Assembly: GCF_964204865.1 (NCBI RefSeq)
Contig: NC_135258.1
Coordinates: 8,485,001 to 8,549,000, forward strand
Source: Styela clava
Taxonomy: Eukaryota; Chordata; Ascidiacea; Stolidobranchia; Styelidae
DNA: 64,000 nucleotides
Reading direction: 5' to 3'
Part shown: piece by piece, positions 3,298 through 64,000 of the stretch
Layout of the letters: each line of letters starts with the position of its first letter
Position numbering within the stretch: the stretch's first letter is position 1
The notes under the pieces: generated by a model
The model's input: only the letters and a program-made list of their open reading frames with translations
Told to the model about the DNA's origin: nothing
Databases searched by the model: none
Made by a program: the position numbers and the translations under genes

Positions 3298-6200
3298 ATA
3301 CCATACTATACTACCGTACTATAACGTATACACCGTACTATACCATACCCAAATACGCTACCGTATTCTATAATTACCGGTACCGAATTATGCTAATCAA
3401 TGGAATATCAACATTATTAATTTAAATTTATAGCATTAATGCAGTAATAGCGCGCAAATTCGTACCACAATACGGTACTGCAATAACTTCCAGTGAGCAG
3501 ATTGATTGTGACGACGTAGACTCGATATCTGACTGTCTGATACAACAGAACGCCGCAGTTCTGTCTCGCGTACCGGTACGGTAATACACAGATCACAGAC
3601 GTTTCGGCCCATAGACAAATACACGTTTCTCAACAATGCGCGATGCGACAATAGACGAGTCTATCTTTACCGAAACAGGTAAAATATCCATCAAACTGAA
3701 GCTACCTTAACGGTCCTGTAGCTGCAGATATTTTGCAAGGGTCATGTTCTCATGTAATACACAGTACTATTTTGCACAATTTTTCTATTTAAATGAACGA
3801 AAATAGGGGATCAAAAACAACACTTTCGCGCCGCGCATTGGACCCCGGATAATTCCCCCAATATCACTCCACGTTTTACGCACACAAATTCTATAATTTA
3901 CAACATTATGTTCCTCCAAGTGTGTTCCCCAGCTTTTCATTTGTCGAATTTGGTGGGTGGTAGAGAATATGCAACTTTCAGGGTTTCCTGTTCTTGGAAT
4001 GTCCTGATATCAGCGAACCTGTTTCAGACGTTAGGCGTTCTCTGTAGACTAGCGTTATTTATATTTGACGTTCAGAAAGTTATGTATTATATATATTTAT
4101 TTAAAGCGCATCGTGTTGATGTAGATTACGCAGTGACGTAGGTACATTTCCCGAAATAAGAAAACTTTTTAGTGAGTTCGATACGAAGGAGAACTCGTGT
4201 TTAAAAAATAGAATCCCACCTCTGGTTAGCCTTGTTGCAAAATACTTTTGTAGCTAATGTAGAATTGAGTGTAAATTCGGTAATGTCATGTGGTATTCGT
4301 GTCTCATAGAAAAGCTGAAAATAGTTGTTCGTTTTCAATTAGAGTATTTGAAAAATCCCGAATTTTAATATTTTGTATGATTATGGGCTGAAGACAGACA
4401 AAAATTGAAATTACTCTTTTGATATTTAAATTATTTCTGATGAAGTATTTGACATTTATCAAACATTTTCTCTTCTGACCAGCAAATCATTCATTTCAAG
4501 ATGCCAGAACAAACGCCTAAAGGCCGTTTAGCAGGTTCATTCTAATAACATGTCGTGTGTGAATACATGTATTAGCTACATGACATATTCGTGAAATTCA
4601 GAAACATCCGTCGAATCAACCTTAGGCCTATTTGCAGGCTTGGGAATTTTTATATAGGATTACGTTTTGTGCGTCAACATAATTATCATTGTGTTAACTT
4701 TTATTTATTCCTAAATTTTCTATGAATCCTATGAGATCTGATATTTCATCCAAAATTTCACTGTATTATTTCTAATCTATGGGAACACGGTTTTGAAAAC
4801 TGAATCATGCAGCATAGATCATCTTCACAGGACCTGGAAAAGTTGGGACAGTCGGCGTACCGTAACCGGTACCGTGATTCAAGTACTGGTAAGTTACCGT
4901 GGCGGTTCAGGTTTGTTCAGGATACCTTGTGATTTACGGGGAATTGATGGTAAAACATTCCGTTATGAATTTCGTGTCCATATATTTGAGCATAGTTTTT
5001 GTTAGTTATATAATAGTTCTGAATTTTAAAAGTTAACAAAATCAAAGAAATTGAATGTTTCGCATGTCTCTTTGTGGTGACAGCACATTTGAACCCATAC
5101 ATTTGCACCCGTATTTTCGCGGGTTCAATGTATATGAGGGTGCTAAAATCCATAGGTCAGGGTTAGTATGGGTTCAAATATCCGTAGGTGCAAATTTCCA
5201 TAGGTACAATAGTATCCCAAGTGATTCCCACTGCTTGCGGAGGCGAAAATGAAGTAGACCAGGCCATCAGCGCATTCCAGGCTGAGATCAGAAGTAAATC
5301 GATCTGCCCTTTTTCTGCTGCATATTACCTTGTCAATCAGAGGTTTATAAACAAACGAGTTTGAAGAATTCACGCACGAGACGGGTTTACGCAAAATGCT
5401 ATGATGGCCTATAACACGAAAATGTTCAACATTTCTAATGTCACCCCGTCTAATCTATATTGAACAAACCAGTATAATATATTATATGTATATGTGGCCA
5501 CATGTATAAACAGTTATATATACAAGATTGCTGGAGGGCGAAGTTCAAGGATTGGTTTAGAGATGGCTACGCTATCTTCATGTATTGCGCATTTATGCGG
5601 TCTTTCATGCTAAATGCAGTCAATGTTATTTGAAAGTGGAGAAGAGTAGACATATATTTGTGGGAGCTGACCTCGATGACCGTATGGTCGTATCGTTCCC
5701 TCCTGTACATACCAAAACAATTTTATTGCTGTTGCTATTTTATTGATGACTGTCTTTTTTGGTTGACGAAATTAAAAATCTCTCTCTATATATATTTTAT
5801 TTGAATTCAAACTTGAACCCCAGCGAATCAGTAGAAGTTTAAGCAGCTTGTCTTTTTTGTTCTTTCAATTTATTTCTTTAACTCACTTGTTCCCTCATTA
5901 AAACTTAATGAATCGTGTCGCAACCCCGATTTTTTTCAATTTGTATCAGAAAAGAACGCAAAGGATTATATATATTACTATTTTCCAATGTTTTGGAATG
6001 TATCTATTCTTTTGATATCGGTGGTTAGATTGAATCAACTAAATGAAATTGAATCCACTAAACTTGAACACTGCAGAAACTTTTTTTTCCGGAAAATGAG
6101 TATATTGTGATCCCTAAATGAAAAACGTGCGATGCGCAGGCAAATATTGTTATAATATCGGATACAACACCGCATAGCATAGTAAATTTATGCAAGCAAA

Positions 6201-15100: not shown

Positions 15101-18100
15101 TATTGCTTCTCAATATTTTTCCACTGTCCAATAGGAAACTATTGTAACATAACTCTTCTTTATGAGATCTAAGAATCTCGACATTCACACTTCTGACCTT
15201 TACGTCGCCAAGCACTTATCTGCCCCTAACGTACTTTCTTGTCAATTATCAATTATTTGATCTCATTGTTTTTGGATAACACTAATTTTTAAATTTTTAG
15301 AAAAATTGAATCTTGAAGTTGTAGATACATTACCTGTCTCGAACGAAATGTACGTGACTTTGGTGATAAAGACATCGATTGAAGATGACGAATCTTATAT
15401 TCTCAATATTGACGGAGATAGGTAAAAAGTTGCTTTCTTTATTGTTCATTGAAAATGCGCTACACGGATTTTTAAATTTAGAATCAGCGCACGAACCGAT
15501 ATGCCGTTTCTTATAAATACCTAATTTGGACATTTTGCCGCAAATTTAGAATCAATTAATTAATCGGAACATTTGATGACATTATGGTCAATGCATCAAT
15601 CACTAATCTGCAATAGTAAGTTCGAATCTCATAGCTTATGAAGGACTGCTTATTGGCGACTGATTTTTGCATTGATAACTAATTCCTCTACCATCCACTT
15701 CCATGCATCCGACAATTGTGGATAGCTATTGACAGTTTTCCATTATTGTATCCTAATTTGATTTTTACGTATAGCCTGTAACTAAATTAATTAATTGTTT
15801 CATTTGCAGCAAAACCATTGAAATTTCGGCAAAATCTCCTGCTGGAATTTACTATGGATGCCAGACATTGATTTCTGTTGTTGAAACAAATTCCGAAAAA
15901 GAAATATCTTCAATGAGAATCGAGGTTTGGCTTTTGTTTGCGAAGTCATGAGTTTATGTTTCAGCCTACGCGTTGTAAATATATTCTATGAAGTTACTCA
16001 CAAACTATTTCAACTATTTTAACTTTCCTATGCTCTGAGTACCCAGTAATAATTTTTAACACATAGAGCTGTTATGTATGTAGACGTCCAATATTTCAAG
16101 TAACAAGAGAGCAATGCTCAAATATATGGACACGAAAGCCAAAACAAAGTAGCACGGGGATGTAATATTAAAATATACCGGTACGGTAGTCATCACGATT
16201 TGGACAGACCACCCCATCGCAACCAACTCGAAACGCCACAAGAGGCGCAGCATTTAATTTTGATGACGTCATCACATACATAACGAATCCCATTGAGCAC
16301 ACAATCATTTTTAAAATAAATAAAAGTAATTGCCTTCTAGCGACAACAACAATCTCAAACCAGTGAAAATTCTAAGCAATTGAACCAGTATTTAAAGAGA
16401 AAGACAATTTTTTAAAATAAAGAAAAAAAGAATTCTAATACGAACAACAACATAATACCAAAACGATCTTTTGTTCAATAATTTCGTGTCCAATAATTTT
16501 AATTTATTTTTATCTTCTCAAAAATAGGCAATATCCCACTGGTCGATAAACTGAGCAATTCATATGATTCCAAACGCATATTTAACGCAGACAATGAACG
16601 CAAAGACGAAAATTTTATTTATTCGCCCATAAACATTTTGAATAGCGTTTGTTGCATTGACTGAAATAAATCTGCCCAGTGTTCGGCGCTTCCGCCAGTT
16701 GTTTATTCTGTAATGCATTTTTAACGACTTTCTGGCCATATTGCCATATTACAGTTTGACAAGTTTTACAATTACCACAGATACACATATACCTGAAAAT
16801 TTTGGTATCAGATGGAATCTTCCAATATATAAAGTAGAAACAACAAGTATTTGAAAAAGTACTCTCGTAGTGTGTGTACCAGGTTAGGGTTAGGCCACAA
16901 TTGTATTCCTATTTTTCCTATTTTAGTTCATTACAAATTCGGGGACTGTCTGTGTTAGCCAAGTGAATATACCTCCTGCCCATAGGTTTCAGTCCCTTTA
17001 CACAACTCGATGTAAAGTAGGCGAACAAAATTAATTACCTCCATTAGTTTGGTACACACACTTCTGGAGCGCCTTTGAAAATACATACAAAGACAGCCTT
17101 TAATTCTAAACAACGTTACTTTGTATACTTATACTCCAGCAATTCCGGGTACTTTCAGTTTGCTCAATTGTACCAGTTTGCTTTCAGGATTCTCCCCGTT
17201 ACAAACACCGTGGAATGCATGTGGATGTTGCCAGACATTTTGTCCCTTACAATGATATGGTCAAGCTGATCAAGGTCGGAATTCTTTTACTGTTGTAAAG
17301 AAATCATTTTGTAGTAATGATAGTAATAGTAGATGGACGCAGTAAACGCTTCTTTATTCTTAAGCATTTGTACTGTAATGTTAATTTGTATTTAATTTTG
17401 ATATTAAAAAATACACGGTTTAATTTGGGCTTAGATGCTGCGATGACGTTCAATATGAATTTTTTTTCGCGATTTCGACTTTCTAATACGTTACTTACGT
17501 CACAACTAATATTTTTTTAGATTATTTTCGATTACTTCAGCTAAACTAAAACTCCTCCGAAGTAAAAATTATTTAATTCCAGCCAAAATACTGGGAATAA
17601 AACTTAAAAGCCCAAATTTCTATCATTCTTAAAATATATCTGAGCTGCAGGTTGAGTCTTAATCGTTACGTCATCGTTAACTAATCCCCAATAACTCATT
17701 GTTGCGAACATAGATGCGGAAGTGGATTCCCAGGTAAAGCTCCGTTAGGAAAATATGATCGTATTTAATTCGGACAAAACTTATGTTGAACCACATCATT
17801 GTCGGCTATGCTGATAGCGAACCAATTCTGCGTCAGTGGCGTGGAAATGAGAAAACGTGAATCCCTCACACCACCAGCCAGAGCAGAGAATTCAGTAACC
17901 CACCTTACGGCGTACTGAAGCAGTAGTTTGGAACCTGGGTTCGTTCCCTGACACTCTGGGGTTCTGCCAGTACAGGCAAGGCGTTACAAAGTTTACATTC
18001 AAATCCGAGAGTCTATATTAATATATGTATATTGTTTAAATAAAATCGAACACCTTGTAGGTTTGCCACTATTATTGAATTTGCTAAATTTTAACGATTA

Positions 18101-30416: not shown

Positions 30417-32196
30417 ATGGAAAACATTATCAAAAACGACATGGACTTGTTGAGACCAAATGATGGAGACGTCTATCTTGTTGCTTATCCTAAAGCAGGT
30501 ACGTTAATGAGCGCATTTCTCTTTTCTAAACATTGAAGCTACTCCATGGCTTGATAAAAAAAAAAGTATAATATTTGAGATATGTTGGGCAATTTCAATT
30601 CAGATATGGAACCGTACTTTATGAAATATCTTCACACACTGGTTGAATAATAATCAAACCGTATAATATACTTTATTTAACCAAGCGATTGTATTTATTT
30701 CAGGTGTGACTTGGATGACTGAAATAGTGACAGCAATTTACCGAGAATACGCTCTCGAGAATCCGAACTGTGCTCCTGAATTTGACAACGCTGTGAGAGC
30801 TCATGCTTTCTGTGAAGTCTGTCCAATGTCTCGACGAGTCTCAGGTGGCAAAAATAAAAAAGTGATTGGCTACGATGCCAATGGAAACGAAATATTTGAA
30901 AATGAAAGTGAAAAGAGGCGACGTATTGTCAGTCTTCATTTTCCGGCCAAAAGAATGGAAAAAATGATGCCAGATGCTTTCAATAATGATAACGTTAAGG
31001 TAGGTTGTTGATTGTTACTGAATACTGAAATCTTCGAAATATTGGTATTTGACCATCATTAAAATATTTCAGTAACGAAAAATTGATTTCGGTATTAGAT
31101 ATTTCAAAGAAATGAACGAAACAACTTGTGTATTTAGGCAAGTTAGAAAAATAGTTCTTTTTTCAAATATCGTTCTATCATCATTGTTTTCTTGTATTCA
31201 ATCAGATGATATACATCGCTAGAAATCCAAAAGACATCGCCGTTTCTTATTACCACTTCCATTGTATGAATGATGTTTTACCAACACCCAATTCCTGGCA
31301 AGAATTTCTAGATGATTTTACAAATGGATCTGGTGAGTGTTAATATAAATACGGTTACAAAAATCGCGGAGAATCCCATCTTGAAATCATTTATTTCAAC
31401 GACGACCACGTATTGAATGAAAATATTTACAACTGGACTCTGCAGCTTCGGTCATTCATTTATTAATAAATTTCGCTGAATCCTATTATTATCCAAGCAG
31501 TGGTGGATTCATATAATAATTTAACTTTATACATCACAGTGAGATGGGGATCCTGGTTCGATCACGTTCGTGGTTGGTGGAGAAAGCATGAAGAAATGAT
31601 TTCAGAAAATAAATCACAGTTACTCTGGCTCACGTTTGAATCTTTGAAGAAGGTAAATATTTGTGTAATCATTTATTCAAGAAGTTGAAAAAATGAATTC
31701 ACATGAACATGATGTTTTAACTTTATCAGGATTTAAAAAGTGAAATGAAAAAAATTTGTGAACATCTTGGACTTGAGTTATCAGAGGAAGGATTGAAAAT
31801 GGCGGTAAAACGATGTACATTTGCATCTATGAAAGCAGATCCAAACAGAAATCACAGCAAAAACAAGATTTTCAAAGGGGATTTCCTAAGAAAAGGTTGG
31901 TTAAAACAGTATTGTCGCGTTAGTTAAGTTTATATTTGAAGGCGTAATAAACTAATTAATTGCTAGGTTTCCGTATTTGTGCTCGACCCACCATTACACA
32001 CACAGTTCTTCTGTGATAAAATGATTTTGCTTTCCCATTGCTGATTACATTTTATTATTTAGGCAAAGTTGGTGATTGGAAAAGCAAGTTCACAGACGAA
32101 CAAAACATGCAATTCAATTTAGCCTTGGCGAATCATTTGAAAGAAGATTTTTCAACATTAACAAGAAACTTTACTGTTGGGGAAAGAATTCAATAA
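30417..32196 (+). CDS. Cytosolic sulfotransferase (SULT-like), copy 1
   Basis: Transfers sulfonate from PAPS to a hydroxyl or amine of a small acceptor; expected to be soluble and cytosolic. Six exons in phase: 30417-30498, 30704-30999, 31206-31332, 31540-31652, 31730-31895, 32063-32196 (305 residues, the normal family length). Motifs: PAPS 5'-phosphosulfate loop YPKAGVTWM (24-32; the family norm is YPKSGTTW), catalytic His in SLHFP (H106), 3'-phosphate site YIARNPKDIAVSYYHF with R132 and S140, GSWFDHVRGWW, RCTFASMK, and the C-terminal RKGKVGDWK (260-268). The His and PAPS-binding residues fall within a few positions of human SULT1A1. A Lys/Glu-rich stretch at 75-100 is unusual. The substrate cannot be predicted. 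The exon 5 donor (gttggt) is weak but identical in all copies. Confidence 0.95.
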
Positions 32197-38417: not shown

Positions 38418-40187
38418 ATGGAAAACATTGTCAAAAACGACATGGACTTGCTGAGACCAAATGACGGAGACGTTTATCTTGTTGCTTATCCTAAAGCAGG
38501 TATGTTAATAAGTGTATTTCTGTTTCTAAACACTACAACTACTTCATGTCTTGATACGAAAAAGTTGTAAAAAGATTAGAGATCTATCCGGCAATTCCAA
38601 TTCAAATATAGAACCAGGCTTTATGAAATATCTTCACGCAATGGTTGAATAATCAATCAGTATAATATACTTTATTTAACCAAGCGATTGTATTTATTTC
38701 AGGTGTGACTTGGATGACTGAAATAGTGACAGCAATTTACCGAGAATACGCTCTCGAGAATCCCAACTGTGCTTCTGAATTTGACAACGCTGTGAGAGCT
38801 CATGCTTTCTGTGAAGTCTGTCCAATGTCTCGACGAGTCTCAGGTGACAAAAATAAAAAAGTTATTGGCTACGATGCCAATGGAAACGAAATATTTGAAA
38901 ATGAATATGAAAAGAGGCGACGTATTGTCAGTCTCCATTTTCCGGCCGAAAGAATGGGAAAAATGATGCCAGATGCTTTCAATAATGCTAACGTTAAGGT
39001 AGGTTGTTGATTGATACTGAATACTGAAATGTTTCGAAATATTGGTATTTGACCATCATTAAAATATTTCAGAAACGAAAAATTGATTTCGGTATTAGAT
39101 ATTTCAAAGAAATGAACGAAACAATTTGTGTATTTAGGCAAGTTAGAAAAATAGTTCTTTTTTCAAATATCGTTCTATCATCATTGTTTTCTTGTATTCA
39201 ATCAGATGATATACATCGCTAGAAATCCAAAAGACATCGCCGTTTCTTATTACCACTTCCATTGTATGAATGATGTTTTACCAACACCCAATTCCTGGCA
39301 AGAATTTCTAGATGATTTTACAAATGGATCTGGTGAGTGTTAATATAAATACGGTTACAAAAATCGCGGAGAATGCCATCTTAAAAATCATTTATTTCAA
39401 CGACGACCACGTATTAATTAAAAAATAATTACAACTGGACTCTGCAGCCTTGGCCATTCATTTTATACGAAATTTCGCAGAATCTTATTATTATCCAAGA
39501 AGTGGTGGATTCATATAATAATTTAACTTCATATTTCACAGTGCGATGGGGATCCTGGTTCGATCACGTTCGTGGTTGGTGGAGAAAGCATGAAGAAATG
39601 ATTTCAGAAAATAAACCACAGTTACTCTGGCTCACGTTTGAATCTTTGAAGAAGGTAAATATTTGTGTAATCATTTATTCGAGAAGTTGCAAAAATAAAT
39701 TCACATGAACATGATGTTTTATCTTTATCAGGATTTAAAAAGTGAAATGAAAAAAATTTGTGAACATCTTGGACTTGAGTTATCAGAGGAAGGATTGAAA
39801 ATGGCGGTAAAACGATGTACATTTGCATCTATGAAAGCAGATCCAAACAGGAATCACAGCAAAAACAAGATTTTCCAAGGGGATTTCTTAAGAAAAGGTT
39901 GGTTAAAACAGTATTCTTTGTTCATTTTGAAGGCGCAATAAATAAATTAATTGGTATGTTTCCATAGTTGCGCTCGACCCACCATTATACACACAATTCT
40001 TCTGTGATAAAATAATTTTGCATTTTCATTGCTGATAACATTTTATCATTCAGGCAAAGTTGGTGATTGGAAAAGCAAGTTCACAGACGAACAAAACATG
40101 CAATTCAATTTAGCCGTGGTGGATCATTTGAAAGAAGATTTTTCAACATTAACCAGAAACTTTACTGGGGGAGAGAAAATTCAATAA
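38418..40187 (+). CDS. Cytosolic sulfotransferase (SULT-like), copy 2
   Basis: Tandem paralogue of the copy at 30417 with identical exon sizes: 38418-38499, 38703-38998, 39206-39332, 39542-39654, 39732-39897, 40054-40187 (305 residues). All catalytic and PAPS motifs are intact (YPKAGVTWM, the His of SLHFP, YIARNPKDIAVSYYHF, RKGKVGDWK). Visible substitutions against copy 1 cluster in exon 2 (CASEFD for CAPEFD, SGDKN for SGGKN, EYEK for ESEK, AERMGK for AKRMEK), around the catalytic His and acceptor-side loops, with a few more in exon 6 (AVVDHL for ALANHL). Exon 3 and intron 2 are almost identical to copy 1, suggesting recent duplication or gene conversion there. Confidence 0.95.
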
Positions 40188-44956: not shown

Positions 44957-46793
44957 TTATTGAATTCTTTCCTCAACAGTAAAGTTTCTGGTTAATGTTG
45001 AAAAATCCTCTTTCAAATGATCCACCAAAGCTGAATTAAATTGCATGTTTTGTTCGTCTGTGAACTTGCTTTTCCAATCACCAACTTTGCCTAAATAATA
45101 CAATGTTATCAGCAATGGAAATGCAATGTCATTTTATTACAGAGGATCTGTGTGTGCAATGGTGGGTCGAGCACAAATATGGAAAGAAACATACAATTAA
45201 TTTATTTTTTACGCCTTCAGAAATGAACTTAGCTAACGTACCAATACTGTTTTAACCAACCTTTTCTCAAGAAATCTCCTTTGAAAATCTTGTTTTTGCT
45301 GTGATTTCTGTTTGGATCTGCTTTCATAGATGCAAATGTACATCGTTTAACCGCCATATCCAATCCTTCCTCTGATAACTCAAGTCCGAGATGTTTACAA
45401 ATTTTTTTCATTTCACTTTTTAAATCCTGGAAAAAATAAAAAATTATGTTCGTGTGAATCTAATTTTTTCGACTTTTCAAAAATAAATCAACGATTATTA
45501 ATTTTTGAACAAATATTTACCTTCTTCAAAGATTCAAACGTTAGCCAAAGTAACTGTGATTTATTTTCTGAAATCATTTCTTCGTGTTTTCTCCACCAAC
45601 CACGAACGTGATCGAACCAGGATCCCCATCTCACTGTGAAATATAAAGTTGAATCAATATATGGTCAACACTGTTTGAGTAATAATAAGATTCTGCGAAA
45701 TTTACGTATTAAAGGAATGGCCGAAGCTGCAGAGTCCAGTTGTGATTATTTTGATTGAACAGTCCATTTTATCGCGGTATTCCATTTTTAGATAGCTTTC
45801 CTCAGATAAAGATCTTTGTAAGCCTATTTATAATAATTTTACATGGTGAATAACTTACCAGATCCATTTGTAAAATCATCCAGAAATTCTTGCCAGGAGT
45901 TGGGTGTTGGTAAAGCATCATTCATACAATGGAAGTGATAATAAGAAACGGCGATATCTTTCGGATTTCTAGCGATGTATATCATCTGATTGAATATGAG
46001 AAAACTATTATTGGTAAAACGATTTTTGAAAAAAAGAAGTGTTTCTCTAACATGCCCAAATACACAAATTGTTTTGTTCATTTCTTAGGAATTTCCGGCA
46101 ACGAAATCAATTTTTTTCGTTTCTGAATTTTTTTTTGTCATACCTATTAATTATCAAATGCCACTATTCTGAAACATTTCAGTATTCAGTAACAATCAAC
46201 AACCTACCTTAACGTTAGCATTATTGAAAGCATCTGGCATCATTTTTTCCATTTTTTTGGCCGGAAAATGAAGACTGACAATACGTCGCCTCTTTTCATT
46301 TTCATTTTCAAATATTTCGTTTCCATTGGCATCGTAGCCAATCACTTTTTTATTTTTGCCACCTGAGACGCGTCGAGACATTGGACAGACTTCACAGAAA
46401 GCATGAGCTCTCACAGTGTTGTCAAATTCAGGAGCACAGTTGGGATTCTCGAGAGCGTATTCTCGGTAAATTGCTGTCACTATTTCAGTCATCCAAGTCA
46501 CACCTGAAATAAATACAAGCGCTGGGTAAAAAGCTGTAAAGTTTATTATACGGTTTGAGTATAATTCAACCACTGTATGAAGATATTCCACGAAGCCTGG
46601 TTCCATATTTGAATGGCAATTGCTGGACAGATATCTAATATTTTACTTTTTTTGATCAAGCCATGGAGTAGCTCCAATGTTTAGAAAAGGGAAATGCGCA
46701 AATTAACATACCTGCTTTAGGATAAGCAACAAGATAGACGTCTCCGTCGTTTGGTCTCAGCAAGTCCATGTCGTTTTTAACAATGTTTTCCAT
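44957..46793 (-). CDS. Cytosolic sulfotransferase (SULT-like), copy 3
   Basis: Minus-strand paralogue with the same six exon lengths, in transcript order: 46793-46712, 46503-46208, 45985-45859, 45633-45521, 45426-45261, 45090-44957 (305 residues). The PAPS loop, catalytic His, YIARNPKDIAVSYYHF and RKG...GDWK motifs are intact and no stop or frameshift is seen. Differences include NTVRAHAF for NAVRAHAF, AKKMEK, CKHLGLELSEEGLDM and MNDALPTP. It is convergent with copy 2. Intron 2 is about 16 bp longer than in copies 1 and 2 (222 versus 206 bp) and intron sequences are more diverged, consistent with an older copy. Expected to be functional; substrate unknown. Confidence 0.94.
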
Positions 46794-52688: not shown

Positions 52689-52696
52689 AAAAAGGG

Positions 52697-53450
52697 TAGT
52701 TAGAAAATGGCTATATATATCCCTTCTGAATTGGTTATGTCCCTACTAAAATGGCTATGTTCCTACTAAAATGGCTATGTCCCTACTAAAATGGCTATGT
52801 CCCTATTAAATTGGCTACGTCTCTTTTAAAATCGGGAAACTGATATGTTGCTAATAAAATGGCCGTGACCGTTATGCTCATACTAAACCAGCGATGGTTG
52901 CTATGTCCCATTTTAGCAGTGACATAACGGACATAGCCATTTAGGTAGGAACATATTGGGGATCGCGATTTTGGAAGGGACATAGTCATTTTAGTAAGGA
53001 CATAGCCCTTTCAGAAGGGACAACTCGGGATCGCGATTTTAGTAAGGACATAGCCATTTTAGTATGAACATAGTCATTTTAGTTGGAACATCGCCATTTT
53101 AATACGGACAAAAACATTTTTGTACTTTGTAGTGGCATAGCTATTTCAGTGGGGATATAGCTATTTTAGTAGGAACATATCAGGTTCGCGATTTTAGAAG
53201 GACATAACCTTTTTAGTAGTGCCATAGCGGACATAGTCGTTTTGGTAAGAACATATCGGGATCGCCATTTTAGAAGGGACATAGATATTTTAGTAAGGAC
53301 ATATCAGACATAGCCATTTTAGTAGGGACATAGCGGACATAGTCATTTTAGTAAAGACATATTAATAGGGACATCGCTGTTTTTGTGTGGACATGGTCGT
53401 TTTAGTGGAAACATATCGGGATCGCGATTTTAGAAGGGACATAGCCATTT
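52697..53450. repeat. Minisatellite with internal inversion
   Basis: Monomers of about 18-28 bp built on 'ATGGCTATGTCCCTACTAAA' fill 52697-52900. From about 52905 the same monomer runs in the opposite orientation (GACATAGCCATTTTAGTA), interspersed with CATATCGGGATCGCGATTTT. The array therefore flips strand partway. No gene. Confidence 0.85.
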
Positions 53451-54141
53451 CAGTAGGTTTCTATTGGACATATACATTCTATAACTACCGTCCTAAAAGT
53501 ATTTTTTCAGTGACATGGGTGTTCCCCCGTAATAGGGTATTTTTATTTTCCACATCGTGCAGATCTATTCTTATATCCTTTCGAGCGTCTACATTATGTT
53601 AATTACATGTGTACTGATAATCATTTACCAGTATCAGCTTAATGAGATCAAATACTGTATATTTTTAAGCTTGAGTTTTATTATTTTGGAAAATTAATTC
53701 TGCGTAGGATTAATCACTTCCGCGTGGAAATCAATTGAAAACTGTAGAATAATTTTCTGATAGATTTACAGTGGTCAACGGTCAAGCGTTGCTGTATTAC
53801 AGGTGTTTCAATGATTTTCATGAAGCGGTGAGCCTGGTTTTCTACAAAAATTTCATTTTAAGAGTGTGGCAATGAAAACACATTCATTGTTCGCTTCATT
53901 TTAGTCAGCTCATCTATAAAATTTCAGTAAACATAGTCTAGCTTTACTATTTACTTTAGTATTATTGAAGAACCTTTTTTTATCCTAATACAGTCTGACA
54001 CTAATAGACCAGTCACAACAGTGCAGATCATCATTTTCATTTTCTTCCTAATGGTTATCAATGCTTCGCTTTTTCATCCCGCAGCCGGGTTTAAAAATTG
54101 TGTTGAAATCAAGGTTAACAACTTGTAGTTGAACCCAAGGA

Positions 54142-55794: not shown

Positions 55795-57551
55795 ATGTCA
55801 AATATAGGGGGTGAGAGACAACTCTTTGGCAGAATGTTCAGGGTCAATGAATGTGATGCTGACCCTGAGTTTGCCGCAAAGGTTGCCAGAATACAAGAGG
55901 ATCTTGCTACGACTTCAAGAAGCAGTAGTCTGTCTCAGGAACCTGAACAAAATGAAGCAATGGTTTCATTTGAGGAAAGCGAGGATGTAACGGAAAAAAT
56001 TGATCATGAAATTAGTGAAACGCAGGAATCAGCCGCAGGAACATCTACACTTGATGACTCTGTTGAACCAGATGGCCCGTGTTATTCACGTCCAAAAAAG
56101 TCAAAAGGTAGTTCTCAACCAACTGAACCTATTCCTGCTACAATTAACACTAAAAACAGCCATGATATGTTAAAAATCTCACAATCTGGAGAAAAATCGA
56201 ATAATAATAACAATAAGAACGACTCAGAATTATCAGATCAGGAAGAAACTCCACCATCAAGTGAAGAACCGGTTGAGTCCTTCAAAGGAGGATATTCATC
56301 TCAAGAAGCTCTCGCAGAAGATTCTGGAGTAAGTCTGCAAGAATTTGATGATTCTCATGATGGCGTGGAGTATAATACCACAATCGATAGACAGTCATCT
56401 AAAAGTGTTTCTGGTCGTATAGACTTATTAGAATATTCGGAGAGAGAGTGGAATGGCAAAACCCTTACGGCCGAGCATATGAAATTGGGCTATGTTAAAA
56501 TAATAGAGAAAACTGGCTACAAAGCAATGCGAAGAATACGTGGAGACAACTACTGTGGTCTTCGAGCAACTTGTTTTCAAATTTTAAGTCAAAATTTAAA
56601 CGTTTTGCGGGATTGGGATCGAATTGAGGACATTGAGCAGATACCCCAAAAGCTCATTGATAATCATGGCTGTAACTGGCTTGTGCAATGGTCTTTTGCA
56701 AACCGTCTTCAAGTTTTGCCAAAGAAGAAAATTGACACTATGGTACAATGTTTAAAATGTTTCAACAATCAGTTGAAATATTGTAAATCAATTGAAGATG
56801 ATGATAGTAGAATACAGCACTTGTTAAAATACTTCAATTCTGGAAATTCTGATGAAATACTCCTTTTCGAAGCAATAAAGTTGTTGATGCTTTATTCAGC
56901 AGTTTTGATACATGACTGTATGAAAGCAGAAAAAGAAATTCCAGATTATGGAATGTTGTTATTTGCCAGAGACACCAGTGAGACGCCAGAACAACTAATG
57001 AAGCAACATCTTAATACTGTTGGGGATACTGGCGGCTTGGAACAGGTTAGTGTTGTTGTTTCCAACTTGATTTTAAACTGGAAGTTTGTAGACAGACTGG
57101 TGTATGCTATTGGCAGTTTGCTTTCTCTGTGTTATGGATGGCATGACCATATATTGAGAGTTTGGTATTTTACATTTAGGTATTTTAATTTGTTTCCATT
57201 TTGCTTGGGAGCTGCAATCGAAAATGCCTGTCCTGAATACCTCACCTTGAGTTTATTAATTTACTGTAATTTCATGAACAAAATCAACATACCAGCATCT
57301 TTTTAAAAGCTTTGCTCATAGCAGAACGCAAACGACTTTTTACTACCGGTAATTCCACTTTTATATGTCTTTTCCAGATCGAAATGATGCTACTCGGTTA
57401 TACCCTCAAAGTTACGATTCGTGTCGTGAGACCATCGCAAGCAGAACAAGAAGATTTTATGAGTTATTATCCAGACAATCATAAAGAAGATTGGGACACT
57501 TGTGATTTAATTGCGGAAGATGACAGACATTATAATATTATTGTTGATTGA
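55795..57551 (+). CDS. OTULIN-like linear-ubiquitin deubiquitinase
   Basis: OTULIN/FAM105 proteins cleave Met1-linked (linear) ubiquitin chains made by LUBAC, in cytosolic immune and death signalling. Exon 1 is 55795-57045 (donor gttagt after LEQ); exon 2 is 57378-57551 (acceptor tttccag, stop TGA). Together they give 474 residues in phase 0. Residues 1-200 are acidic, Ser/Glu-rich and probably disordered. The catalytic fold follows: MKLGYVKIIEKTGYKAMRRI, then RGDNYCGLRATCFQ with nucleophile C254, and at the C terminus AEDDRHYNIIVD with H468 and N470, matching the Cys/His/Asn triad of human OTULIN. LLGYTL and VVRPS also match the family. Human OTULIN is about 350 residues, so the N-terminus is longer. 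No clear PUB-interacting motif or C-terminal PDZ ligand is visible. The reading frame stays open for 87 codons into the intron, so intron retention would give a catalytically dead form. Confidence 0.9.
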
Positions 57552-58333
57552 GTATTTTTTTTTGTGCTTCTTGTTTTATTAAATTTATTGAACATATTAT
57601 ATCAATTATAAAAGCCATTATTATATGCTTATTTTATGTATGCATGCGTGATAACCATTGGTTTTTTGGAGCCTTCCTTACGCTAAAATGCCATTTTTAC
57701 TTTATTTGAATTTTCAGTTTATGAAAAAAAGAAGTACTGTTACCAGTACACTACCAGTGAACCCATGTCATAATGTAGAAGGACTCAAAGTTACATATGT
57801 TCTAGGACAGGGGTGGGCAAATTACGGACTGTAGGCCGAATACAGCTCACCGAAGTGGTTCATCTGGCCCACTTATACCCAGTGCAATTACGACTGTCAT
57901 TTTTTATTGCTGAATAAATATTTAATTACCGGTACATAAGTGAAATCATCGATGCTAGTTATTTGTGAATAAACTGTTTTTCATTCATAGTTTTATATTG
58001 AGTTTTGAACATCCGGCCCAGTATCCAAGTCTATCATCTGTGTAAGTGACCCATTTATAGGGTTACCATATTTTTGTGACTTCAAAGCGGGCCCCCTAAA
58101 GACCATTAGCTGTGATTTTTACCTTTACATTTTCCGATTTCACTACATAGGCCTACATTTAAAGCCATCCCGACTGTCTTCATTGGCCATATTGTCATCG
58201 GGAGTTTATGGGCATATTCTCTGTCTAAATATCGATTTCTTTTCAAAAAATAGAAAGGAATTGACGTTATCGATACAAAATAATTCGGATTTAGCCACAA
58301 TGATTGTAGTGCACTTACCCTTTGTCGGTTCCT
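57552..58333. other. 3' flank with hAT-like terminal fragment
   Basis: No gene recognised. ACAGGGGTGGGCAAATTACGG (about 57806) resembles a hAT terminus followed by CTGTAGGCCGAATACAGCTC, and CATCCGGCCCAGTAT at 58010 may belong to its other side, but a matching end is missing. The start of the MULE arm follows. Confidence 0.45.
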
Positions 58334-59290
58334 TTAATTACCGGAACGGACCCTAAATTACCGGAACGGACCGGAACGGGGTGGAAAACATACATAAACC
58401 TACCGGAACGGACCTTTAGATGTCTTGCAAATGTCATTTCATATACTCCCATGCAATTTTTATATTAAATCGGCAAACTTGGGGGGGTACAGTGGTAAAT
58501 TTAATTTTCTTTAATTACCGGAACGGACCCTAATTTGCCGGAACGGAGTGGAAAACCAACATAAACCTACCGGAACGGACCTTTAGATGTCTTGCAAATG
58601 TCATTTCATATACTTCCTTGCAATTTTTATAATAAATCGGCGAACTTGGGGGGGACAGTGGTAAAATTAATTTTCTTTAATTACCGGAACGGACCCTAAA
58701 TTGCCGGAACGGAGTGGAAAACCTACATAAACCTACCGGAACGGACTTGTAGATATCTTGCGAAGGACATTTTATGTCCCTCCAAGCGATTTCCCAAGTA
58801 AAATGGAAAAATTGAGGGGGATAGAATGATAGAAAATAACAATTTCATTTTACGCCACCTAGCGGATGTAAATTGAGCAATGAATTCCTGAATCATCTCT
58901 TATCAATATGAATTGATGATAAAAATCGATAATCAAAACTTTCTTACATGTTATTAGCCTTTAATTTTCCTTGTCGATAAGATAACGTAGTCATAGATTC
59001 AGATTGGAACAAATAAAAATTGTTTCCAATTGTTTCCACATTCTTGAGCAGGTGTTGCAACTATGTAGCACAACATAAATATCCACCTAAACCTGTCATT
59101 ATTAAAAATAATGTTGTTATTTTGGTTCGTGTTCCTGTCAGCCGTAAAGACTGCCGTTCTGGCACTGTAATCTACCGTGATAGATTGCATATTGCTTCGT
59201 GTTCATATATTTGAGCATCGTCCTCTTGTTTACCTACATACATACAAATCTGATCCTCTAAAATGACTTCTCAAAATTTACTAATATGCT
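58334..59290 (+). repeat. MULE left inverted arm with subterminal tandem repeats
   Basis: The outer part has repeats starting at 58334, 58511 and 58677 (periods 177 and 166 bp), each containing TTAATTACCGGAACGGACCC, ACATAAACCTACCGGAACGG and a G-run (ACTTGGGGGGG in the first two). ACCGGAACGG therefore recurs many times and is a candidate transposase-binding site. The inner part (58800-59290) is unique sequence mirrored in the right arm. A short duplicate of 59025-59075 follows at 59294-59347. Confidence 0.9.
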
Positions 59291-59439
59291 GAAAATTGTT
59301 TCCACAAAATTCTTGTGCAGGCATTGTAACTATGTAGCTAAACATTTTATATTGGAACTGGTTGAAGTACGTGACCTTAAGTTATGATGAAAGTGGGGAT
59401 GTCGTTGTATTTCATCAAATATGAAATATTTGTGATATA

Positions 59440-59482
59440 TATTTAAATATGATATATATGTGATATATATATATATATATCG
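59440..59482. repeat. TA-rich microsatellite inside the MULE
   Basis: GATATATATGTGATATATAT-type run ending in (AT)n, between the left arm and the transposase gene. No function inferred. Confidence 0.7.
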
Positions 59483-60191
59483 GTAAATATATAAAACCAT
59501 ACATAAATGTTTTATTATATCAATAACGTTAACATATTTGACAAAATACTTGAATTTAAAATTTCAGCATAGGAAAATGCGAGAGTTGACCACGAGTTGA
59601 AAACGATTGTCGCTATAGCCTTTATAGCGAGGACGGTTCAAAGTGCTCCTACTGATTTATCTACTGATAACACAGCTTCGAGCCTCCAAAGTTGAAATGC
59701 AGCAGGACTGGCGCTGGGCTGTTCGTCATGGCCGGAGATTTCTTTGCGACAGAAAAGCGACCTATGTGCCATTTCGAATTAATATTCGAACTATTAGCAT
59801 CAGGAATTTAAAGCAGATTATTTACGATTCTTGTAATTGTACTCCTAGTTTTTATATCTTCTCCATCAACGTGCCAAGGATAGAATACCAAGCCAGTTCG
59901 ACGATTTTATCGGTATGTACAACTTTTGCTAGCTCAGATAACTTGTATTTAATATAAGGATTAATATATTTATTGAAGTTTACTTCGAATGAGGAAATGG
60001 TGTCCATATTTTAAAAGTGTCTTTGTTGCAAAACGCTAAGATCTTGAATGTATATAATATATGAATGAGTCAGAATGATAATTTTTAATTGTACTAGTCG
60101 ATATCAAATATACCTTTATTACTTTTAACTAAGAGTTCCATTTTCTGGTTCAGATATTCAACGCAAACGTCAAAAGACAGCCTACTACGCT

Positions 60192-63107
60192 ATGTCTAGT
60201 GCATTGAGATACCCATGTGCCACCTGTTCCATTGAATGCATTGACGAGTGCATTGAATGTGAAATGTGTGAGACCTGGACACATGCTTCCTGTCTTGGAG
60301 AACAACCAAAAGTCATGGAAGTATGGAGCAAGAAAGACATGCACTTTTTATGTGCAAGGTGCTTGTGCCCGAATCAAAAGTTCGATTACGACATGGCGTT
60401 ACGGATGTTAGCAGGTCGCCCTTACTTGACCAAATCGTTGCATTGTTTGTTAGGCAATCACCAACTTATACCTTTAGAAGCACCACAATCTGAGAATCAT
60501 ATAAGAGAATGTGCAGTGTCTAAGAATATTTTGCAAAAGTTTCATCCAATCATGCTGGACTGTTTTACTCCAATGTACGTGGAAGGCGATGGAAACTGCT
60601 TATACAGGGCAGTATCCGTCTCGTTATATGGAACACAAGACTATCACAAACATTTACGCCTCTTGACAGCAATTGAAATTATGGAACATCAAGAATTTTA
60701 CGACATAGAATTTCCTGCTTTCAAAAACCCGATTTATGATGATCGGGTTGTGACATCAAAATACTCGGATTTGATACATTCAGCTCGAACGGATGGATGT
60801 TTTTCAGAAATGATGCACATGTATGGCTTGAGTTCAGTTATCAAAGCTCCGATTCAATCTTATTACCCTCAAACCAGCGCCAACGTTTTCCTAAGCCAGC
60901 CTTTCACAAGGAAAATTTGTGGCCGTGACGTCAGAGCCACGCAACAATCGAAAACGACAATAATGTGGACCCAAATGACGATTCCTCCAACAGCCAAAGA
61001 TTTTAGAACAAATCATTTTGTACCTCTCCTCGAAGAACCAGTTCAAAAATACGATACGATTTTAATTCCGGATTCCCCTAGTATACTATCGGACTCGGAA
61101 ACATTTTGTAATGATGACAAATTAATATCAGACGAGTCGACCAGCAAAGACGAACATGTTGATGCAGCAAAGGACTCTGCAACTGTAGATGTTGTAACTC
61201 CTGACATGCCTCATTCTATATCCGATACATGCAGAGTATCCAATAATCGAGGCGTTCCTCTGCCAAACGGTAAATTCCTAAGCTTGGAACATATTATTCA
61301 AATTTTTGGCCGTTGTGAACCAGGCACGGTGTTACCTGAAATTCCAACTGGTAGCAAAGAAAATGTATATTTTCTCATCACAAACACCAAAAATGCAGAG
61401 AATCGTAGGAATGGATACCGAAGCGAATTTTCGGACGATTGTGGCGTCTGGAATTCTAAGAAAGGCACATCTCCTAAAACGTTTTATTTTGTGGAAGAAG
61501 GTTGTAGGCCCAAAAAAGTTTTTAAAAAAGCGGGACAATTTTGCAACGAAAAAGAAATCAAAGGAAGAAGAACCTACATTCCATTAATCCCACAACCGAG
61601 TTCTGAACAATTGCTCGAAATACAGCGTTACTACGCGTCTCTGAAAGGGACTATAATGTTTAAAAAACGTGTTACGTGTATACTGTCAGCGCCGACATAT
61701 TTAATAAAGGTCAAAGATGAAATTGCTCTGGTTGAGTTTGTCGGCAGTAATCAAGTGAAAACCATCCATTGCAATGCAAAATGTGATGAACAGTATTTTC
61801 GTACCAGACCGGCCACCCTCGAGAAAATTTCACAAGAATTGCAACAAAAGAAGCCGAGAGAGGTTTACAATGACTTTCTCCTACAAGACAAAGAATTAGT
61901 ACAAACACCGAGGAATCTCTGTCAACTGTACTCTAAAAAGCACAACGACAAAAAAACAAAAAACAACCATAATGGTCCCGTCGGAAATCTAGCTGACAGA
62001 ATGCTGCGTGTTGTTTCCCTATGTCAGCAGGAACCAATGGTCCGCTCCGTCACTTTTACCAGTAATAGTATCGGTGTGACAATATTCAGCGACGATCAAA
62101 TCAGCGACATTAAACGATTTTGTTGTACAGGCCGAACACCACTAACTGTGGACAAAACTTTCAATCTGTGCGAGATTCATGTGACAGTGACCACATTTAA
62201 GAATTTATCTGTAACAAATAAAACAACTGGGGAACCACCAATTATGCTCGGACCTTTATACATTCACTCGTCATCTTCTGCAAAATGCTATAATCAATTT
62301 TTCTCATTACTTTCCGGTGCTTTAAACGACGTTGATACAAAATTACTGACAATAGGAACTGATGATGAAAAAGCTATGCGTAAATCAATCTCTGAAAACT
62401 TTCCTGATTCAACTAATATAATATGCTCTCGTCATCTGAAGAGTAATGTCGAGGAATTTATGAAAAATAAAGTGGGGCTGAATATGAGCGAAAGAAGACG
62501 CATTAATGAGACCATCTTTGGACGTACAGGGATAATAACAACTGAAAATGAAGAATCATTTGCGAAAAAGACTTCGGATCTACTACACAATACAGAAAAC
62601 CCGTCATTGAGGAATTATTTGGTAAGACGGGTTTTACCGCTGATAAAGAAGGGTATTTTTTGCGTAACAAAGAACAAACAGCTTAGCGCACACTGGACTA
62701 ACAACAACACGGAAAGTATGAACCACGTACTCAAGCACATGATTGATTGGAAATCTACAAACATAGATATTCTCATAGAGCGGCTGATTGCTCACACAAA
62801 AGCCCAATATAAAGATGTGGAGCGTGCGCTTATTGGAGTAGGCAATTACCGTCTGGCAACTGAGTTTAATCATTTTTTCATTGCCCCAAACAAATATTTT
62901 GGGAAATCAAAAGAAGAAAAATTAAATTTACTAAAAAGATTTCTTACCTACTCTTCAATTAATCAACGAAAATCGTTGCTGTCATCGGATGGAATGTTAA
63001 TGATCGGAGTAAATTCATCTGGTGGCAGAAAACCGTGTCAAAGAAAACGACCTCGATCCGAAAAAACCCGAACTGTAAAGAAACTCAAGACAAGAAACAA
63101 AAACTAA
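60192..63107 (+). CDS. PHD-OTU-MULE transposase
   Basis: Single 971-residue open frame. Residues 9-57 form a C4HC3 PHD-type zinc finger (C9, C12, C23, C26, H31, C34, C54, C57), a fold that often reads histone tails. Residues 125-280 form an OTU cysteine-protease domain: VEGDGNCLYRAVS with D133 and C136, and NHFVPLL with H275, all catalytic positions kept. After a low-complexity acidic linker and a Cys/Lys-rich middle region comes a MULE DDE core: TVDKTFNL (D654), TIGTDDEKAM (D724), CSRH (C745, H748; the CxxH typical of the superfamily) and NNTESMNHVLK (E841). The C-terminus is Lys/Arg-rich (a nuclear signal). It presumably excises and inserts the surrounding element in the nucleus. ATG 60192 is the first Met before the zinc finger. 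The OTU domain should confer deubiquitinase-like activity, with unknown role in transposition. The frame is intact. Confidence 0.9.
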   Translation: MSSALRYPCATCSIECIDECIECEMCETWTHASCLGEQPKVMEVWSKKDMHFLCARCLCPNQKFDYDMALRMLAGRPYLTKSLHCLLGNHQLIPLEAPQSENHIRECAVSKNILQKFHPIMLDCFTPMYVEGDGNCLYRAVSVSLYGTQDYHKHLRLLTAIEIMEHQEFYDIEFPAFKNPIYDDRVVTSKYSDLIHSARTDGCFSEMMHMYGLSSVIKAPIQSYYPQTSANVFLSQPFTRKICGRDVRATQQSKTTIMWTQMTIPPTAKDFRTNHFVPLLEEPVQKYDTILIPDSPSILSDSETFCNDDKLISDESTSKDEHVDAAKDSATVDVVTPDMPHSISDTCRVSNNRGVPLPNGKFLSLEHIIQIFGRCEPGTVLPEIPTGSKENVYFLITNTKNAENRRNGYRSEFSDDCGVWNSKKGTSPKTFYFVEEGCRPKKVFKKAGQFCNEKEIKGRRTYIPLIPQPSSEQLLEIQRYYASLKGTIMFKKRVTCILSAPTYLIKVKDEIALVEFVGSNQVKTIHCNAKCDEQYFRTRPATLEKISQELQQKKPREVYNDFLLQDKELVQTPRNLCQLYSKKHNDKKTKNNHNGPVGNLADRMLRVVSLCQQEPMVRSVTFTSNSIGVTIFSDDQISDIKRFCCTGRTPLTVDKTFNLCEIHVTVTTFKNLSVTNKTTGEPPIMLGPLYIHSSSSAKCYNQFFSLLSGALNDVDTKLLTIGTDDEKAMRKSISENFPDSTNIICSRHLKSNVEEFMKNKVGLNMSERRRINETIFGRTGIITTENEESFAKKTSDLLHNTENPSLRNYLVRRVLPLIKKGIFCVTKNKQLSAHWTNNNTESMNHVLKHMIDWKSTNIDILIERLIAHTKAQYKDVERALIGVGNYRLATEFNHFFIAPNKYFGKSKEEKLNLLKRFLTYSSINQRKSLLSSDGMLMIGVNSSGGRKPCQRKRPRSEKTRTVKKLKTRNKN

Positions 63108-63424
63108 GTTGAATTTTACGCATGTCTCGTGTTTTGTTTATTCTTTCATTTCTTCGGTTCTTTCCTTTTTTTTAAATATTTTTAATCGTTCCCACTTCCC
63201 GTTAGTTAGTTTTCAATATTCTATTTTTGTCTATTCATTTTTTTGTTGTATTTTTTCTATTTTTTTCTACTCTTGTAAAATACAAAAACCTCCACTGGCA
63301 GAACGAATTTGAGCATGAGTTCCTACGTTTAAGTTGGTGAAAAATTATAAGAAAGCACGTTTTATATTTTGCGTATAAATTTCGAGACCTAGTGGGGAAA
63401 TTAACAATCTGCAGCTAAGTCAAT

Positions 63425-64000
63425 AGCATATTAGTAAATTTTGAAGGAGTCATTTTAGAATTTAGAGGATCAGATTTGTATGTATGTAGGTAAACAAGAG
63501 GACGATGCTTAAATATATGGACACGAAGCAATATGTAATCTATCAAGGTAGATTACAGTGCCGGAACAGCAGTCTTACGGGTCACACGAACTTAAATAAC
63601 AACATCATCTCTAATAATGACAGATTTAGGTGGATATTCATGTTGTGCTACATAGTTACAATACCTGCACAAGAATGTTTGTGGAAACAATTTTTATTTG
63701 TTCCAATCTGAATCTATGTTATCTTATCTACAAGGAAAATTAAAGACTAATAACATGTAAGAGGGTTTTGATTATCAATTTTTATCATCAATTCATATTG
63801 ATAAGAGATGATTCAGGAATTCATTGCTCAATTTACACCCGCTAGGTGGCGTAAAATGAAATTGTTATTTTCTATCATTCTATCCCCCTCAATTTTCCCA
63901 TTTTACTTGGGAAATCGCTTGGAGGGACATAAAATGTCCTTCGCAAGATATCTACAAGTCCGTTCTGGTAGGTTTATGTAGGTTTTCCACTCCGTTCCGG
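63425..64000 (-). repeat. MULE right inverted arm (partial)
   Basis: Complement of the left arm from 59290 out to about 58704, with scattered substitutions and small indels (for example a TTTAGAATTTAGAGG stretch for a shorter left-arm equivalent). The CCGGAACGG-containing outer tandem part is cut by the window edge. Confidence 0.9.

Follow-up and report, generated by a model that had tools for sequence, protein, structure and literature searches.

A probable Foldback-type Mutator transposon of Styela clava encoding a PHD finger, an OTU protease domain and a MULE core in one protein

The stretch of DNA analysed, hereafter the window, comprises 64,000 nucleotides of Styela clava contig NC_135258.1 and lies on the contig designated C10 in the 376.6 Mb genome that was searched. 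An element of 6,050 bp, reaching from 58327 to window-equivalent position 64376, occupies its right-hand end. The features are listed below.

58318..58326, no strand: left target-site duplication CCCTTTGTC, with its partner CTCTTTGTC past the window
58327..59290, forward strand: left inverted arm of 964 nt with terminus GGTTCCTTTAATTACCGG, from arm alignment
58329..58837, forward strand: tandem array of three left-arm units, 177, 166 and 166 nt long, from repeat analysis
60192..63107, forward strand: transposase frame of 971 residues with the order PHD-OTU-middle-MULE, from the frame list and Pfam
60216..60362, forward strand: PHD finger, C4HC3, residues 9–57, from the pattern, below the Pfam cut-off
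60585..61031, forward strand: OTU cysteine protease domain, residues ~132–280, from Pfam and the alignment of three families
61341..61811, forward strand: middle domain, residues ~384–540, no Pfam match, from conservation between families
62145..62720, forward strand: MULE DDE core, D654-D724-CxxH 745/748-E841, from Pfam and alignment
63425..64000, continuing to window-equivalent 64376, reverse strand: right inverted arm of 952 nt, from arm alignment

The window also holds exons of a GH20 hexosaminidase and of a sulfotransferase, recognized with Pfam, the sulfotransferase matches lying at 39699–39938 and 45842–46084. Close to the sulfotransferase exons are three near-identical frames (30667–31008, 38666–39007, and 46199–46642; Pfam E = 0.2), which likely form a tandem or inverted gene family. 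An OTULIN-type gene with two exon frames is found at 55795–57545, 0.8 kb from the OTU-bearing transposon. This gene and the exons named above point to an animal host. A non-autonomous Foldback element is present at 52694–53490, 5 kb from the large element. Its ends, GGGTAGTTAGAAAATGGC and CGGTAGTTATAGAATGTA, resemble those of family B described below, it contains the same TATGTCCCTACTAAAATGGC arm repeat, and its flanks, TCTTAAAAA and TCCTAAAAG, are alike in 7 of 9 positions by eye.

The two arms are 93.4% alike, and both ends of the element read GGTTCCTTTAATTACCGG. The outer half of each arm contains tandem units of about 166 nt containing CCGGAACGG words, of which 11 exact copies were counted in the window, ten in the left-arm units and one in the right arm. 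Just a low-complexity 14-nt repeat (63217–63261) precedes the right arm. A sequence-only reading of the window had placed the left terminus at 58334; it is corrected here to 58327, give or take 1–2 bases. The matching inverted terminus that was anticipated past position 64000 was located in the flanking DNA, 376 bases beyond the window edge. Two 23-nt stretches elsewhere in the window (4971–4993 and 16114–16136) are 96% alike to the inner arm at 59196–59218, and the three are perhaps copies of a common short dispersed repeat. On C6, between 21.78 and 22.51 Mb, at least 10 partial matches to the 166-nt unit, 76–82% alike and on both strands, look as though the arm unit had given rise to a dispersed or satellite-like repeat.

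Target-site duplications were counted in nine two-ended copies, six of family A, to which the window copy belongs, and three of family B. Copies of which the examined DNA covers one end only were excluded, as were a second C19 copy with flanks identical to those of the first (L038/L056) and the family B copy L016, whose right flank is too short. An exact word of 8–10 nt is shared across the junctions of 6 of the 9 copies; the longest common word in 72 mismatched pairs of flanks was 4 nt. The expected duplication of 8–10 bp was thereby found in exact form in most copies, but not in the window copy, where CCCTTTGTC and CTCTTTGTC are alike in 8 of 9 positions, two bases off the terminus. This imperfect duplication and the two copies of the nine that show none (on C19 and at 4.11 Mb of C1) count against a transposon identity. 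The Mutator superfamily is marked by duplications of 8–11 bp and by terminal inverted repeats that are often long; both features are present here, the exact duplications measuring 8–10 nt.

The frame of 971 residues announced between long inverted arms runs from ATG to stop within an open stretch of 992 codons. In 20 simulated windows (first-order Markov, same composition), such stretches reached at most 170 codons. A possible splice acceptor was noted by eye near 60151, upstream of the frame. A small frame at 59628–59954 has no Pfam match. The residues D133, C136, H275, D654, D724, C745, H748, and E841 were found where the sequence-only reading had put them. Its domain assignment was upheld by Pfam for OTU and MULE, which exceed the gathering score, while the PHD finger of the window protein remains below it.

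The PHD finger shows a complete C4HC3 spacing at residues 9–57, and this pattern did not arise in any of 20,000 shuffles of residues 1–70 or of 20,000 shuffles of residues 1–300. Its Pfam E-value is 3.7 in the whole window protein and 0.0025 when a piece of 70 residues is submitted, with 18.3 bits against a cut-off of 24. Among solved structures, its sequence is matched best by the PHD fingers of EBS and CFP1 (E = 0.006–0.007), and a query with the family profile retrieved CFP1 with E = 0.00095. The finger of family B also scores below the cut-off of 24 (13.3 bits, 18.8 as a piece). That of family C is above it (E = 1.1e-7, 32.2 bits), in an upstream frame of L019, the one copy examined for it. 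This frame ends near GTAAGT and the main frame starts after a pyrimidine-rich TTTCTAG, so that the family C finger is likely a separate exon. By its sequence, the PHD finger most likely binds the histone H3 tail.

The OTU domain of the window protein is detected over residues 132–226 (E = 2.4e-6, 28.5 bits, cut-off 23.3), and the solved chains nearest to it are those of OTUD1 and OTUD5. As the profile match ends at residue 226, short of H275, the assignment of this histidine depends on the NHFVPL motif and on its invariance. The same profile gives 27.5 bits in family C, above the cut-off, and 16.8 bits in family B, below it.

The middle domain, conserved between families, is a putative terminus-binding module. 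The MULE profile matches residues 652–752 (E = 2.8e-6, 28.1 bits, cut-off 27.6), and the CxxH motif sits between the second D and the E of the DDE core, as in the Mutator superfamily. Against the same cut-off, family B scores 26.1 bits in the protein scan and 29.7 in the genome search, and family C 16.6 bits, which is below. No family passes all three Pfam cut-offs (PHD, OTU, and MULE), and each of them is passed by some family. Mutator kinship is further hinted at by two scores below their cut-offs, that of Pfam Transposase_mut in family B (E = 0.001) and, far below, that of NCBIfam IS256 in the window protein (E = 0.014). A single PDB match of residues 337–971 (E = 1.1) was judged to be due to chance.

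Further copies in the host genome, which the sequence-only reading would require, do exist. The protein search gave at least 60 matches, with 47 of 166 first-look candidates scored and several of the matches being pieces of one copy; the arm search gave 46. Twenty genomic stretches around protein matches were examined. Family A consists of the window copy and four loci at 89–97% identity, all broken or deleted. The C13 copy covers residues 1–419 only, in two frames, and consequently has no DDE core; the C17 copy joins residues 1–93 to 702–971; and those on C6 and C1 have stops in frame. More distant broken copies, such as L024 and L027, are 48–81% identical. Family B (L014–L018) shares about 32% identity with the window protein, and its members are 96–99% identical among themselves. 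Four of its five copies have long tandem-repeat arms, with a longest aligned stretch of 1.2–1.9 kb, and an exact 8-nt duplication flanks all three copies in which it is readable. Family C (L019–L023 and L025) is about 28% identical to the window protein, with 99–99.7% identity among its members. Given these values of 96–99.7% within families, the copies of families B and C have probably moved recently.

The order PHD-OTU-MULE is common to the three families. One protein from each was aligned, and of the 799 columns without gaps 156 are invariant, among them D133, G134, N135, C136, N274, and H275 of the OTU domain and D654, D724, C745, H748, and E841 of the MULE core. The claim that all catalytic positions are intact is therefore borne out for the window copy and for the compared proteins of families B and C, at the level of sequence; the presence of a catalytic residue does not equal demonstrated activity. 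As the fusion recurs in distant families, it looks like a stable design and not a one-off accident. Among 13 transposon frames, the PHD pattern was found in 4, DGNC in 9, NHFVPL in 11, and CxxH in all 13. The frames without DGNC are L018 and L025, whose start lies within or past the OTU part, together with L015 and L026. The last (L026:1726-4509) is an open frame of 928 codons without OTU, with two copies of the middle domain by eye and with the second D of the MULE core replaced by E. It adjoins a frame that we take to be synaptojanin-like, and is a possible domesticated transposase.

With OTU and MULE recognized by Pfam, a second terminus, and further copies, the proposal of a DNA transposon combining PHD, OTU, and MULE in one protein stands. 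The element is very probably a full-length cut-and-paste DNA transposon of the Mutator superfamily and of Foldback type, whose one protein is the transposase. That the frame is instead a domesticated host gene of transposon origin is highly improbable. It is the sole undamaged frame among the five family A loci examined at 89% identity or more, as a domesticated gene might be, but it is flanked by matching arms and a near-perfect target duplication, and the sister families B and C comprise several near-identical copies with open frames.

A recent capture of the OTU domain from a host gene can hardly be credited. A candidate donor is at hand in the OTULIN-type gene 0.8 kb upstream (Pfam Peptidase_C101, E = 3.7e-64). 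Yet the similarity between the OTU domain and the first exon frame of this gene is not beyond noise, which leaves this origin unsupported, and the OTU domain has the same position in families that are about 30% identical.

At least 82 matches to the MULE profile over the cut-off were found in the genome, 9 of them within loci from the protein search; the remaining 73 lie in frames of 117–476 codons. At least 33 OTU matches were over the cut-off, 8 in or beside the protein-search loci; of the others, 12 belong to frames longer than 1,000 codons. Within 170 kb of the 73 remaining MULE matches no OTU match over the profile cut-off was found, the nearest being 172.9 kb away. From this, OTU appears to characterize the present lineage rather than MULEs in general, although the same cut-off also misses the OTU domain of family B. 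Viral contigs, queried with the whole protein, its MULE and middle parts, and the alignment of the three families, gave no confirmed relative, and neither did prokaryote genome contigs, phages, and plasmids; absence from these collections carries no information on animals.

Selection was estimated as omega by the Nei–Gojobori method on tblastn pieces, which yields values raised by decay and misaligned stretches. Compared with the diverged broken copies L024 and L027, the window protein gave 0.27 and 0.30 overall, 0.07 and 0.04 for PHD, 0.44 and 0.33 for OTU, 0.18 and 0.45 for the middle part, and 0.19 and 0.18 for MULE, respectively. Close family A copies gave 0.48–0.80 overall, with 0.67–0.71 for OTU in the two that cover it. 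Five family C frames differ from the majority codon by 17 nonsynonymous changes and 1 synonymous change. Judged by the 0.48–0.80 of family A and the 17:1 of family C, recent insertions show no visible constraint.

The OTU domain may be a working deubiquitinase serving transposition, for which its sequence leaves somewhat less than an even chance. Against that role stands L015 of family B (L015:3015-5834), an otherwise open frame of 940 codons in which a 10-residue in-frame loss removes the OTU catalytic cysteine. Together with an omega higher for OTU (0.33–0.44) than for PHD (0.04–0.07) and MULE (0.18–0.19) in the comparison with the two diverged copies, this loss would fit a domain that has lost protease activity, or never had it, and is kept in the transposase for structure or binding. 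Such a non-catalytic domain is unlikely, since D133, N135, C136, and H275 are invariant across family proteins sharing about 30% identity, and since L015, without long arms within the 9 kb examined, is probably not a working element.

Proteins with both OTU and MULE occur in public protein databases. Helentrons, of the Helitron group, are not known to have a DDE transposase or inverted arms. They resemble the present element in that an OTU-like protease is carried by an animal transposon, and differ as rolling-circle elements with Rep/helicase, according to the accessible text of PMC6431247. OTU has been described on Helitrons, and a role of the protease in transposition or repair has been proposed only, in the part of PMC2836005 available. 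The same source describes Ginger1, in which an OTU or Ulp1 protease is fused to the transposase, once with a PHD finger; its DDE is of the Gypsy-integrase type, however, its extra domains are C-terminal, and the sole PHD tabulated there is paired with Ulp1, not OTU. It also describes MULEs of hydra, lancelet, and plants that likewise combine a Mutator transposon with a cysteine isopeptidase, which is Ulp1 (SUMO-type) instead of OTU, and a figure legend aligning Ulp1 and PHD of Ginger1 and Mutator transposases places PHD on MULEs already in print.

The window element appears, from its sequence, to show features of the little-known Rehavkus, a Repbase group placed as outgroup or sister of MULEs and present in arthropods and annelids, in the accessible text of PMC6446971. 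A PHD finger in the transposase, a duplication of about 9 bp, inverted ends, and tandem repeats near an end are described there; here, the C4HC3 finger is below the cut-off in families A and B and above it in C. In contrast, the arms are about 960 nt long here and the TIRs listed there 26–400 bp, and tandem units lie inside both arms. For Rehavkus, a minisatellite is described before the 3' TIR. The likeness is by description only, and the main text of PMC6446971 is without the words OTU and protease.

The Foldback elements Tm1 and Tetris have long composite arms with tandem repeats and duplications of 8–10 bp, and their structure has been tied to Mutator kinship (PMC3169594, PMC4079207, as far as accessible). 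Arms of tandem repeats are found here over 1.2–1.9 kb in family B and partly, in the outer half, in family A. PHD and OTU, by difference, occur 0 times in the main text of either paper, and likewise in that of a survey of arthropod MULEs (PMC13359780). The accessible parts of PMC6875170 and PMC12220107 hold nothing relevant to a PHD-OTU-MULE protein. Such a triple protein was not found in the searchable literature, which leaves aside Repbase and most subscription papers, and, as far as that literature goes, it is a new combination of parts already known on transposons.

In the mechanism that we propose, the DDE core with CxxH would cut and join DNA. Recognition of the long arms, in which the word GGAACGG recurs, would probably fall to the middle domain, possibly assisted by the PHD finger, and insertion would generate the duplication of 8–10 bp. 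The PHD finger would most likely dock on the histone H3 tail. The OTU domain would most likely act in cis, as a deubiquitinase keeping the transposase or target chromatin proteins free of ubiquitin. The sequence-only reading had likewise suggested that the protease might stabilise the transposase or counter host silencing, and that the PHD finger could direct insertion by chromatin mark. It is further conceivable, if rather doubtful, that this is an old lineage whose transposase cannot do without its deubiquitinase; the PHD finger would sit on chromatin of promoter type, and the OTU domain would strip ubiquitin from transposase or histones. If so, the element would shield itself from the proteasome and open its target, and would represent a natural cis-acting fusion of a deubiquitinase and a recombinase.

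Ubiquitin and SUMO proteases on unrelated transposons suggest that transposition must deal with the ubiquitin system. In this ascidian genome, three distant families each preserve the OTU triad within the transposase protein itself, and two of these three OTU-bearing families have probably been active recently. Families A–C would constitute a naturally occurring series for testing what the protease does by the change of a single residue.
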